NCBI RefSeq assembly: GCF_037023755.1
Contig: NZ_CP146100.1
Coordinates: 62,001-126,000 of the forward strand
Direction: 5' to 3'
Length of the DNA stretch: 64,000 nt
From: Saccharopolyspora sp. SCSIO 74807
GTDB taxonomy: Bacteria > Actinomycetota > Actinomycetes > Mycobacteriales > Pseudonocardiaceae
Shown: positions 45,617 to 50,650 of the stretch, piece by piece
How positions within the stretch are numbered: position 1 is the stretch's first letter
Layout of the letters: each line of letters begins with the position of its first letter
Translations under genes and position numbers: made by a program
Notes under the pieces: model-generated
The model's database searches: none
Told to the model about the DNA's origin: nothing
What the model saw: only the letters and a program-made list of their open reading frames with translations

Positions 45617-46348
45617 TCAGGCCACGGTGGGCAGCGCGGGGCTGGTGACGTCGTAGACCCGGCCGGGCTGACCCAGCAGCGGCGGCAGGATCGCGGCCTT
45701 GCGCGCGGCCTGCTCGTCGTCGCCCCAATGCACCTGGCGGTTCGCGGTCAGCACCAGGCTCAGGTCCTGCGGCTGCTGCGCGGACACCGCCTGGACCTGG
45801 CCGCGCAGCTCGGGCGGCAGCGCGGTGAGCGCGTCCAGCGCCGCCCGCACACCGGCCGGGCGGTCGGCGCCGAGGCGCAGTTCCGGCAGACCCGGCGGCG
45901 GCTTCGGCGCGCTCCGGAACGCCACCCCGGCCTCGTCCACCAGCCGCGCCCCGCCCGGCTCGGCCAGGTACGCCACCGCGTGCCGCTCGGTCACCTGCAG
46001 CGCCACCGTCGACGGCCACTCCAGCCGGACCTGCGCGGAAGCGATCTCCGGCAGTTCGCCCAACCGGCCGCGGACGTCGTCGGTGTCGACGCGCATCATC
46101 GGCTGCCCGAGTTCGACCGCGGCGGCCTCCAGCACCGCCTGCTGCGGCGTCGCGGTGAGCCCGTCGACCCGCACCGAACGCACCCCGAGCAGCGGGGTGA
46201 AGTACAGCGCCAGCACCACGACGGTGATCACCGCCAGCCCCAGCGGCAGGATCCACCGGCGCGGCTGGCGCGGACGGGCCGCCCGCACCGGGCGGCCGCG
46301 GGTGCTGCGCGCACCCGGCCGGTTCGCCGCGCGCCCGGCGGGGCTCAC
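45617..46348 (-). CDS. ftsQ: Cell division protein FtsQ
   Basis: 243 residues from GTG 46348, adjoining the murC stop. A basic cytoplasmic tail (RAARPRQPRRW) precedes one membrane helix (ILPLGLAVITVVVLALYFTPLL) and the extracytoplasmic POTRA domain (VRSVRVDGLTATPQQAVLEAAAV) with the FtsQ beta domain (EWPSTVALQVTERHAVAYL, GARLVDEAGVAFR). It links FtsL/FtsB to the divisome. In most actinobacteria ftsZ is the next gene; here 5.7 kb of other genes intervene. Confidence 0.94.
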   Translation of the reverse strand: MSPAGRAANRPGARSTRGRPVRAARPRQPRRWILPLGLAVITVVVLALYFTPLLGVRSVRVDGLTATPQQAVLEAAAVELGQPMMRVDTDDVRGRLGELPEIASAQVRLEWPSTVALQVTERHAVAYLAEPGGARLVDEAGVAFRSAPKPPPGLPELRLGADRPAGVRAALDALTALPPELRGQVQAVSAQQPQDLSLVLTANRQVHWGDDEQAARKAAILPPLLGQPGRVYDVTSPALPTVA

Positions 46349-47793
46349 ACCGCTTCCCCGGTGGCGGCGCGGTCCAGTTCGGTCAGGATCTCGGCTCCGA
46401 GCATGGTCACGTCGCCCGCGCCCATCGTCAGCACCAGGTCGCCCGGTTTCGCCAAGCCCGCCACCAGCGGCGCGGCCGCGGTCAGCGACGGCTCGTAGTG
46501 CACCCGCTCGGGGGCCGCCGGGATCGCGTCGGCGATCAGCGCACCGGTCACGCCGGGCTCCGGGTCCTCCCGCGCGCCGTACACGTCGAGCACCACGATC
46601 TCGTCGGCCAGCGCCAGCGCGGTCGCGAACTCGCCCGCGAACGCGGCGGTGCGGGAGAACAGGTGCGGCTGGAACACCACGACCAGCCGCCCGTCCGCGG
46701 CGACCGGGCGGGCCGCGCGCAGCTGCGCGTCCACTTCGGTCGGGTGGTGCGCGTAGTCGTCGTAGACCTGCACCCCGGCGGCCTGGCCCTTGAACTCGAA
46801 ACGCCGCCGCACTCCGCCGAACGCGGCGAGACCGTCCAGCAGCCCTTCCAGCTCGGCACCGAGTTCCAGCCCCGCGAGCATGGCGGCGACCGCGTTGCCC
46901 GCCATGTGCTCGCCCGGCACCGAAACCTGCACGTCCACGCGGTGCGCCGGGTGGTCCGGCCCGGCGTGCAGCTCGACGGTGGCGACCCCGGCGCCGTGCT
47001 CGGGGCGGTAGCCGACCAGGCGGGCGTCGCCGTGCCCGGTGACCGAATGCCCGTAGCGGCGGACCCGCAGCCCGGCGAGCTCGGCGCGTTCGGCCAGCGC
47101 CGCCGCGCCCGGGTCGTCGGCGTCGGCGATGAGCACTCCGCCGGGTTCGATGCGGCGCACGAACTCCTCGAAGACCTCGGTGTAGGCCTCCGCGGTGCCG
47201 TGGTGGTCGAGGTGGTCCGGTTCCACGTTGGTGACCACCGCGACCGACGGCGCGAACACCAGGAACGAGCCGTCGCTCTCGTCGGCTTCGGCGACGAACA
47301 CGCCGCCTTCCCCGTGGTGCGCGTTCGCGCCGGAGTCGTTGAGGTCGCCGCCGATCGCGAACGACGGGTCCAGCCTGCAGTGCTGCAACGCCACGGTGAG
47401 CATCGACGTCGTGGACGTCTTGCCGTGTGTGCCCGCCACGCAGGCCACCCGGTGATCGGCCATCAGCGCCGCGAGCGCTTCGGCGCGGCGCAGTACGGCG
47501 ACTCCGCGCCGCTGCGCTTCGAGCAGCTCCGGGTTGTCCGGGCGGATCGCGGTGGAGACCACGATCGCCGTCGGGTCGCGGTCGAACTGGTCCAGGTTCT
47601 CCGCCCGGTGCCCCAGCGCCACGTGCGCGCCCTGCGCGCGCAGTGCCAGCACGGTGCGCGAGTCGCGCGCGTCGGAACCGGACACCTGGCGGCCGCGGGC
47701 CAGCAGGATGCGGGCGATGCCGCTCATCCCGGCGCCGCCGATGCCGACCAAGTGCACTCGGGACAGCAGGTCCTCGTCGGGTCGCTCGCTCAC
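46345..47793 (-). CDS. murC: UDP-N-acetylmuramate--L-alanine ligase
   Basis: 482 residues from GTG 47793, overlapping the murG stop by 4 bp. It adds L-Ala to UDP-MurNAc in the cytoplasm. Motifs: N-terminal [20 protein letters not shown]-binding [52 protein letters not shown] and [10 protein letters not shown]. All Mur-ligase signature residues are intact and the length is normal. Confidence 0.97.
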
Positions 47794-49217
47794 TGCCCGG
47801 CCACCTCCAGCACGATCCGGGCGAGGACCTGGTCGGCCTCGCGGTGACCGCTGCCCAGCGTCGCACGGCTCATCATCTGCAGCCGCTGCGGGTCGCGGGC
47901 CATCGGCAGCAGCTCACCGGCGACCTTGTCCGGGGTCATGTCCTCGTCCGAGACCAGCACCGCGCCCCCCGCGGAAACCACCGGCTGCGCGTTGAGCGCC
48001 TGCTCGCCGTTGCCGTGCGGCAGCGGCACGAACACCGCGGGCAGGCCGACCGCGGAAACCTCGGCGACGGTCATCGCGCCGGACCGGCACACCACCAGAT
48101 CGGCAGCGGCGTAGGCGAGGTCCATGCGCTCCAGGTACGGCACGGCCACGTAGTTCGGGGCGCCCGGAACCTGTTGCACCGCAAGGGTGTTCTTCGGCCC
48201 GTGCGCGTGCAGCACGCCGATCCCGGCGCGGCCGAGCGCTTGCGCTGCGCCGGAGAACGCGGTGTTCAGCGTCTGCGCGCCCTGCGAACCGCCGAAGACC
48301 AGGATCGTCGGGGCGTGCGGGTGCAGCCCGAAGAACTGCCGCGCCTGCGCGCGCAGCGCCATCCGGTCCAGGCCGGTGATCGATTCGCGCAGCGGGATCC
48401 CGATCGGGCGGGCGCCCGCCAGGCCGCTGTCCGGGGTCGCCGAGAGCACCCGCTCGGCGTAGCGCGCGCCGATCTTGTTGGCGATTCCGGCGCGCGCGTT
48501 TGCTTCGTGCACCACGATCGGCGTCCGCCCGCGCGCGGCGAGGTAGGCGGGCAGCGAGACGTAGCCGCCGAAGCCGACGACGACGTCGGCCTGCACGCGC
48601 TCCAGGATCTCCTTGGTCTGGCGCACCGACTCGCGGACCTTCATCGGCAGCTTCAGCAGCTCGGTGCTGGGTTTGCGCGGCATCGGCACCGGCGGCACCA
48701 GCTCCAGCGGGTAGCCGCGGGCGGGAACCAGGCGGTTCTCCATGCCGCGTTCGGTGCCCAGCGCGGTGATTCGCGCGTCCGGGCGCGCGCGGCGGACGGC
48801 GTCGGCGAGCGCCAGCGCGGGCTCGATGTGCCCGGCCGTGCCGCCGCCCGCGACGACGACCGAGAGCGGGCGCTGCGGCGGGCCGGGTTGCCAGCCCGGG
48901 TACGGCTGGTTCGCCTGCTGGCCGGGGAAGCCGGGCGGCGGGCCGGGTTGTCCCGGCTGCGGCGGTTGGCCCTGCTGAGGCTGGCCCGGATAGCCCGGGT
49001 AGCCCTGCTGCCCGGGATGGCCCTGCTGGCCCTGCTGCCCGGGGTAGCCCTGCTGCCCCGGATGACCCTGCTGACCCGGATGCCCCGGAAAACCGCCAAC
49101 CGGTCCCGGCTGCCCCGGGAAACCGCCCTGCGGTCCGGGAGGGCCGGCCTGCCCGGGAGATCCGGGCCCGCCCGGAAAGCCGGGCTGGCCGCGGTAGCCG
49201 GGTTGCTGCCCGTTCAA
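47790..49217 (-). CDS. murG: MurG N-acetylglucosaminyltransferase with collagen-like N-terminal extension
   Basis: 475 residues from TTG 49217, which overlaps the ftsW stop as TTGA and has AGGAGG 6 nt upstream, so the start is well supported. Residues 1-116 are an unusual extension made largely of Gly-X-Y triplets (about 24, residues 7-80, with two one-residue breaks) rich in Pro and Gln, such as [12 protein letters not shown], then a Pro/Gln-rich stretch. The normal MurG core follows: [63 protein letters not shown] and [25 protein letters not shown]. The core converts lipid I to lipid II at the inner membrane face. The role of the extension is unknown. Confidence 0.95.
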
Positions 49218-50650
49218 CGGTTTCCTCCTCGTGTCGGTGCCCGGGAACCGGATTTGGCGCGCGGCGCCGTGCGCCCTCGCGCGTCCGAGGTTCCCCGGCG
49301 GGTCTGCGACGCCCCGGTGCTGCGCGAACCGGGGCGGTTGGACGGCGCTGGGCGCGCGGCCCGTCGTTTGGCGGGCGGGCGGTACGGCGCGGGCGTCGGC
49401 AGCCGCAGCAGCTTGCCGACGCGACCCGGCCCGAGCGAGCGCAGCGCGGCGATCGCCTCCGGCTCGTTGCGCGCGAAGTTCGCCAGCAGCCCGAACACCA
49501 GCATGCTGGTGACCACCGACGACCCGCCGGAGGAGATCAACGGCAGCGGCAACCCGGTGACCGGCAGCAGCCCCACCACGTAGCCGACGTTGATCGCGGC
49601 CTGCCCGGCCAGCCAGGTGGTCAGCGTCGCCGAGACCAGCCGGATCCACGGGTCGGTGTTGCGCGCCGCGATCCGCAGGCCCACGTAGGCGGTGGTGCCG
49701 AACAGGCCGAGCACCACCGCGCAGCCCACGAAGCCGAGTTCTTCCCCGATCACGGCGAAGATGAAGTCGTTGTGCGTGTTCGGCAGGTACTGCCACTTCG
49801 ACCAGCCCTGCCCGAGCCCGCGCCCGAACAGGCCGCCGTCGGCGAGCGCGTACAGCGCCTGCTGCGCCTGGTAGCCCGCGCCGCTGGAGTTGGCCGAGGG
49901 GTTGAGGAACGAGGTGATCCGGTCCATCCGGTAGGTCGCCAGCGACGCCAGCACTATCGCCGCGGTCACCGCGCCGAGCACCCCCACGCCGAACAGCCGC
50001 AGCGGTGCCCCGGCGAACCACATCAGCGCCAGCAGCACGATGAACAGCGTGACCGTGGAGCCGAGGTCGGGCTGCAGCATCACCAGCGCGAACATCACCA
50101 GCCCGGCGGGCACCACCGGCACCAGCAGGTGCCGGTACTGCGCCAGCATTCCGCGCTTGGTGACCAGCACGTGCGCGCCCCACACGGCGAACGCGATCTT
50201 GGCGAACTCGACCGGCTGGAACGAGACCGGCCCGAAGTCGAACCAGCTGCGCGCGCCGCCGCGTTCCTCCCCGAGCGGGGTCAGCACCAGCACCAGCAGC
50301 AGCAGGCAACCGCCGAACACCGACAGGCTGTGCCTGCGCAGCAGCTTCACCGGCATCCGCAGCGCGCCGTAGAACAGCACCAGCCCCGCCGCGCAGTACG
50401 CGAGCTGCTTGACGAAGATCCCGTAGGACGACCCGCCGCTGCTGAACGAGTCCACACTGGACGCCGACAGCACCATGACCAGTCCGAACACGGTCAGCAG
50501 CCCGAACACCGCCAGCAGCAGGTGGAACGAGGCCAGCGGCCGGGTCAGCCAGGCGGTCAGCGGCGTGGTCAGCGCGGCGAGCCCGGTGGGGCGTTGGTTC
50601 TCGCGCGAGCCCTGGTTCTTGCGCGGGCTCTGGGCGGTGGCGGTCGCCAT
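49214..50650 (-). CDS. ftsW: Septal peptidoglycan polymerase FtsW (SEDS family)
   Basis: 478 residues from ATG 50650. About ten membrane helices with SEDS motifs: [90 protein letters not shown] and [10 protein letters not shown]. The conserved Asp of the polymerase active site is in LQPDLGS. It has a long basic, Arg/Pro-rich cytoplasmic tail (about residues 400-478). It pairs with FtsI to build septal wall. 6 bp separate it from the murD stop. Confidence 0.96.

Follow-up and report, generated by a model that had tools for sequence, protein, structure and literature searches.

The MurG protein encoded in the dcw region of Saccharopolyspora sp. SCSIO 74807 carries a collagen-like N-terminal extension of 116 residues ahead of its catalytic core, and this long tail is a new feature on an otherwise known, ordinary lipid II synthase. 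Taken as a whole, the evidence is best read as a species-specific expansion that would yield a disordered, extended and weakly sticky tether on the lipid II synthase, a reading to which we give a probability of about 0.5. The window analysed here is the whole stretch of 64,000 nucleotides, taken from a genome assembled as one contig of 6.69 Mb. Its relevant features, all on the minus strand, are the following.

46345..47793, minus strand: murC, the next dcw gene (TIGR01082, 474.8 bits against a cut-off of 335.1)
47790..48869, minus strand: catalytic core of murG, with the N- and C-terminal GT28 domains and the stop codon (TIGR01133, PF03033 and PF04101 over cut-off)
48870..49217, minus strand: N-terminal extension of MurG, 116 residues, rich in Gly, Pro and Gln (translation, no internal start codon, PF01391 match)
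48870..48977, minus strand: aperiodic Pro/Gln linker, residues 81-116, between the triplets and the MurG core
48978..49199, minus strand: Gly-X-Y part, residues 7-80, with 24 triplets and two one-residue Pro breaks
49215..49217, minus strand: TTG start codon of murG, overlapping the ftsW stop codon as TTGA
49224..49229, minus strand: AGGAGG ribosome-binding site of murG, conserved in the 30 closest loci
49214..50650, minus strand: ftsW (TIGR02614, 383.6 bits against a cut-off of 337.5)

The genes on this strand follow the order mraY, murD, ftsW, murG, murC and ftsQ. Curated profile cut-offs are exceeded by mraY, ftsW, murG and murC; ftsQ matches an FtsQ model with 120.8 bits, short of the cut-off of 353, and murD was assigned from a reading of its open reading frame. 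In MurG, TIGR01133 spans residues 118-468 (287.7 bits against a cut-off of 250.25), both GT28 domains (PF03033 and PF04101) score over their cut-offs and the core aligns end to end with 48 relatives. The dcw order ftsW-murG-murC is present, with both flanking genes confirmed by their profiles (TIGR02614 and TIGR01082). By profile and gene order, the protein with the tail is MurG and is predicted to transfer GlcNAc to lipid I. Its closest named relatives among the matches listed are from Saccharopolyspora, with 84-88% identity in a search that may leave out the nearest records. The whole catalytic core, the motif GGGTAGH and the place between ftsW and murC are those of the known GT28 lipid II synthases of the TIGR01133 family, which differ from the present protein in having no 116-residue repeat tail ahead of the core. 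In three solved MurG sequences, chain residues 5-9 align with residues 115-120 of our query and none has such a tail; the solved chains 1f0k and 1nlm are presumably E. coli MurG.

The tail corresponds to the first 348 nt of the minus-strand coding sequence (49217..48870). Codon 1, TTG, is the sole ATG, GTG, TTG, CTG, ATT, ATC or ATA among codons 1-122; since there is no alternative start within the tail, it should be made together with MurG. The TTGA overlap with GAGGAGGA ahead of it, as well as the AGGAGG site, is kept in all 30 of the closest loci (L010-L039, two of them from the same species); the overlap with ftsW was checked in the nearer relatives, the FtsW motif having failed for L066, L067 and L070-L127. 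An earlier note, made from the DNA letters, had proposed that the start is set by these two elements and that the extension is translated. Its coordinates are right, and the conserved start, the open frame and the lack of any other start codon in the tail support both proposals.

The tail consists almost entirely of three residues, with 35 Gly, 32 Pro and 27 Gln (94 of 116), and contains two charged residues. Its triplets are laid out as nine in residues 7-33, one Pro, three more triplets, a second single Pro and then twelve triplets up to residue 80, so that our recount agrees with the roughly 116 residues, 24 Gly-X-Y triplets, Pro/Gln richness and two one-residue breaks described earlier. 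Uninterrupted and in register, the longest Gly-X-Y run counts 13 triplets; in 20,000 shuffles that preserve the composition, no run exceeded 10. When Gly is instead counted across the whole tail in the best single register, the value of 17 was matched by 1,220 of the 20,000 shuffles, because the breaks shift the array between registers. The Pfam Collagen model PF01391 scores 28.2 bits in the whole protein (cut-off 27.2) and 35.7 bits with the tail alone, and we call the tail collagen-like on the basis of this match over the cut-off together with a Gly-X-Y run beyond chance. At the DNA level it is the strongest tandem repeat of the window, in which the three tandem-repeat rows scoring at least 90 all lie inside the MurG tail, and the repeat units in the Gly-X-Y part are 9, 18, 27, 30 and 45 nt in length. 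No signal peptide was seen on the tailed MurG by eye.

MurG was found through its core in 377 of 390 family genomes, and upstream DNA was examined in 287 loci drawn from family, order and class searches and from named genomes. The core motif was present in 285 of these loci, all except L210 and L223, giving 239 distinct MurG upstream sequences (L104, L105 and L209, which have N upstream, are counted); a stricter core motif gave the same totals, L301 having matched in the wrong frame. The survey is weighted towards the best-scoring genomes rather than random, and MurG outside the class is represented by the solved structures only. A run of 13 Gly-X-Y triplets occurs in two of the 239 sequences, both from this species, while the other 237 have at most five Gly-X-Y triplets in the upstream open frame; among the species examined, the tail was seen only in this one. 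Since every other species examined lacks the long tail, MurG as such can do without it. In the four other species of the genus that were examined, the MurG tails are 14, 14, 17 and 20 residues in length (LSGQQPAPGYP and the like) and differ by whole GHP, GYP or GQP units, each coded by 9 nt.

Across the Pseudonocardiaceae examined, MurG mostly has a short and variable N-terminal tail of about 3-42 residues, and a beginning similar to SGQQP is common to several genera. The short-tailed proteins resemble the long-tailed one in their start and ribosome-binding site, which are identical in the 28 nearest relatives, and differ from it in lacking a Gly-X-Y array and in their length, which in cases with a clear start does not exceed about 42 residues; examples are LSG[ED]QT[VA]RI... 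in Saccharopolyspora, L[SN]TQQP... in Actinopolyspora and LSGQQPGPG... in Halopolyspora. The earlier statement that MurG normally begins directly at its core therefore holds for many other families of the class, where the N-terminal tail is absent, but not for most Pseudonocardiaceae. Its further supposition, that random variation of the region with frame breaks in sister species would speak against the extension, meets a divided result, because the sister species keep the same start and show no frame breaks, whereas the length differs greatly (14-20 against 116-126 residues). No MurG with such a tail is named in the titles and abstract openings of the literature matches listed, in agreement with the earlier remark that no case had been described.

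A search with query residues 1-150 against the 390 family genomes gave matches in 23 and the long array only in the two of this species; as at most ten candidates per genome were scored, the spread was judged on upstream DNA instead. One genome (G357), in which the match reached query residue 27, was dismissed as a carrier, its locus having a tail of 27 residues without the array. An order-wide search with the whole protein gave many matches starting at query residues 5-40; the Gly-X-Y tail was not found in the 20 of them that were read, together with the 28 loci L260-L287, and that turned out to be chance alignments to other frames or across stop codons. Far-upstream starts picked for ten loci (L069, L078, L105, L174, L183, L193, L196, L206, L238 and L248) were judged by eye not to be real tails, and none of these loci has a Gly-X-Y run longer than four. 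A run of five occurs in the open frame of L184, where the start was nevertheless picked at the core. In L078 (Actinosynnema pretiosum), 31 consecutive prolines are found in the murG frame upstream of murG, probably untranslated.

A second genome of the same species also has the tail, lengthened to 126 residues. It differs from the reference by one exact in-frame duplication of 30 nt, corresponding to residues 78-87 and straddling the junction of triplets and linker, and the extra 10 residues break the triplet register. Over the shared murG coding sequence the two genomes differ by eight substitutions, two in the tail and six in the core, all of which are synonymous. What is directly observed is that the frame is open, that the start is conserved, that the sister species have short tails and that the two genomes differ by an in-frame duplication. 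As the sister tails of 14-20 residues step by 9-nt Gly-X-Pro units, the long tail appears to be derived, and it is most simply explained as an in-frame repeat expansion of a short ancestral stub, grown in place. A seed similar to S-G-Q-Q-P-x-P-G-[YH]-P may have grown through duplication of 9-nt Gly-X-Pro units and of larger multiples. Such a history would show how a collagen-like array can arise in place, in 9-nt steps from a Gly-Gln-Pro seed, and on a housekeeping enzyme of the cytoplasm instead of a surface protein.

The tail has a lower GC3 (94 of 116 codons) than the core (338 of 359; p 6e-5), the value for ftsW being 453 of 478. A foreign origin of the tail, which the lower GC3 might indicate, was rejected because similar units grow in place in the tails of sister species. 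Each of 200 recodings with the codon usage of the neighbouring genes gave an mRNA with more structure than the natural tail, whereas among 200 versions in which the tail kept its own synonymous codons in shuffled order, 21 had an equally weak or weaker structure, so that the weak structure largely follows from the lower GC3. Weak structure is as expected for a translated 5' region, and we prefer to read the lower GC3 as a codon choice for weaker mRNA structure.

Resemblance to collagen raises the possibility of a cytoplasmic collagen, in which three tails wind into a triple helix and make a MurG trimer or a rod-linked scaffold. Besides the 24 triplets, a longest run far above the shuffles and the PF01391 match, the tail matches 24 distinct solved-structure sequences, nearly all of which are named collagens. 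The best of these is 8zxl chain X (spindlefibril/axialfibril), a solved fibril protein which shows that Gly-X-Y chains lacking charges can form fibrils. Like the MurG tail, it is nearly uncharged in its Gly-X-Y repeat and has Pro and Gln in Y, and this match led us to weigh the collagen explanation slightly higher; unlike the tailed MurG, however, it is a 780-residue repeat of small residues (GAP, GSQ, GLQ) and has no enzyme core. Gly-X-Y runs and a PF01391 match are likewise shared with the bacterial collagen-like proteins (phage EPcl, streptococcal Scl2), although the MurG tail sits on a cytoplasmic enzyme. An excerpt of PMC3368898 describes Gln in Y as common in the collagens of Gram-positive bacteria and Pro in Y as common in human collagens. 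Against a triple helix, of the 28 triplets that lie in Gly-X-Y runs of two or more, nine have Tyr, Phe or His at X, three have Gly at X and two have Phe at Y, and Pro occupies Y in 16 triplets but X in just 4. The E. coli phage collagens are described in the same excerpt as having Pro mainly in X, 22% charged residues, no Phe, His, Trp or Tyr, and separate trimerisation domains (PMC3368898); the MurG tail does not share their X/Y preferences or their charge. This composition is not universal, since 8zxl and the Gram-positive collagens also depart from it. Bacteria are said there to be without the prolyl hydroxylation that stabilises Pro in Y, and Gram-positive collagens to have far fewer charges and more Gln in Y (PMC3368898), so that the low charge of the tail (2 residues in 116) excludes nothing on its own. 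Pfam recognised no trimerisation domain in the protein, finding the Collagen and the two GT28 domains only, though oligomers of the core (as in Bordetella) could serve instead. The register is moreover broken in the reference tail and again in the second genome. The tail thus resembles collagen by its sequence, and a triple helix is possible but unlikely; the trimer proposed in the earlier note loses ground to the lack of a recognised trimerisation domain, the frequent Tyr, Phe and His in X and the broken register of the second genome.

The main rival to the tether is a neutral one, namely that slippage during replication of a GC-rich 9-nt unit extended a disordered tail that the enzyme does not need, and that selection merely tolerates it as ballast because length changes in multiples of 3 nt would leave the core unharmed. 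It gains from the fact that tail length and sequence vary freely among the relatives, that no other tandem repeat of the window is as strong as this array and that the exact 30-nt duplication ignores the triplet register. Comparison of the repeat units with each other bears on the question from both sides. Among four 18-nt units chosen for the peptide [HY]PGQQG, pairwise differences fall on 13 of 24 synonymous and 3 of 84 nonsynonymous sites, and 15 units chosen for the peptide Gly-[QYHF]-Pro show 0.67 synonymous against 0.20 nonsynonymous differences per site, but these counts are biased because a choice of units by their peptide conceals nonsynonymous differences. When six arrays were selected by DNA similarity instead, each of them varied most at the third codon position, which argues against neutrality and is clearest in the 18-nt array (1, 0 and 5 differences of 13 at codon positions 1, 2 and 3) and the 45-nt array (1/21, 2/20 and 7/20). 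In several of the same arrays, however, the differing codons are nonsynonymous about as often as synonymous (synonymous/nonsynonymous 2/1, 3/4, 5/4, 4/1, 3/4 and 1/4), the arrays overlap so that the counts are not independent, and in whole-tail comparisons at lags of 30-45 nt any excess of differences at the third position is small or absent. The absence of nonsynonymous change between the two genomes also argues against neutrality, with just two substitutions in the tail to draw on. Taken together, this modest evidence suggests that the tail peptide is under some selection. Since the arrays picked by DNA give the weaker signal, weight was moved from the tether reading to neutral ballast, which we consider a genuine possibility without favouring it.

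Two further explanations would remove the tail from the working protein or from the genome altogether. Translation might start in an unusual way at the core, or the tail might be cleaved off, as would suit the MurGs of many actinomycete families and the solved MurGs, which start at or near the core, and a tail that is dispensable in relatives. Codons 2-122 contain no ATG, GTG, TTG, CTG or ATH, though, and the conserved TTG start and AGGAGG site also serve the short-tailed MurGs of close relatives, which makes this explanation very improbable. GC-rich tandem repeats are error-prone in sequencing and assembly, but an artefact is hardly conceivable here, because the tail is present with its frame intact in two assemblies of this species, one in a single contig and the other in about 30.

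Returning to the tether, the product of the tail would be a disordered, extended and nearly uncharged chain dotted with Tyr, Phe, His and Trp. Such a chain could act as a flexible tether or spacer through weak multivalent contacts and might raise the local concentration of MurG near its membrane partners, while catalysis itself should stay unchanged. Among candidate partners the nearest is FtsW, whose gene lies directly upstream and whose Arg-rich cytoplasmic tail (49217-49426, minus strand) contains 19 Arg/Lys and one acidic residue in the last 70 residues; contacts between Arg of the FtsW tail and the aromatic residues of the MurG tail are thinkable. The last 70 residues of FtsW contain 15-19 Arg/Lys in all 12 loci compared (two of them from this species), and this tail is similar in length and charge in most of them. 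Relatives whose MurG tail is short have an FtsW tail that is just as basic, which counts against a contact with FtsW.

Physical linkage of the two proteins has a precedent in an actinomycete, as an ftsW/murG gene fusion that joins the C-terminus of FtsW to the N-terminus of MurG is noted for Kribbella flavida in an excerpt of PMC4929429; here, in contrast, ftsW and murG are two separate, overlapping genes. An excerpt of PMC6420597 describes oligomers of Bordetella MurG, proposed to be a scaffold for Mur enzymes, and one of PMC7864634 an enrichment of Mycobacterium smegmatis MurG in the cytoplasmic and membrane-domain fractions. As a more specific version, and a long shot, Tyr, Phe, Trp and His of the tail might bind the Arg-rich tail of FtsW or each other and build up a sticky layer or a bundled rod of collagen type beneath the membrane. 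Lipid II would then be made beside its polymerising enzyme, in a non-covalent counterpart of the Kribbella fusion. If the tether works, the genus would offer a natural experiment, with the same enzyme carrying tails of 14-126 residues, and the effect of an N-terminal tether on the site of lipid II synthesis could be compared across species.

Elsewhere in the genome, PF01391 has few matches. There are eight in total, two of which are the MurG tail; the other six, along with two weak ones, were set aside as probable chance runs, mostly in non-coding frames. One place at about 867.6 kb (L040/L042) exceeds the cut-off of Pfam Collagen; it has a Gly-X-Y run on each strand, of 8 and 12 triplets, and looks like a 9-nt-periodic stretch in non-coding frames.
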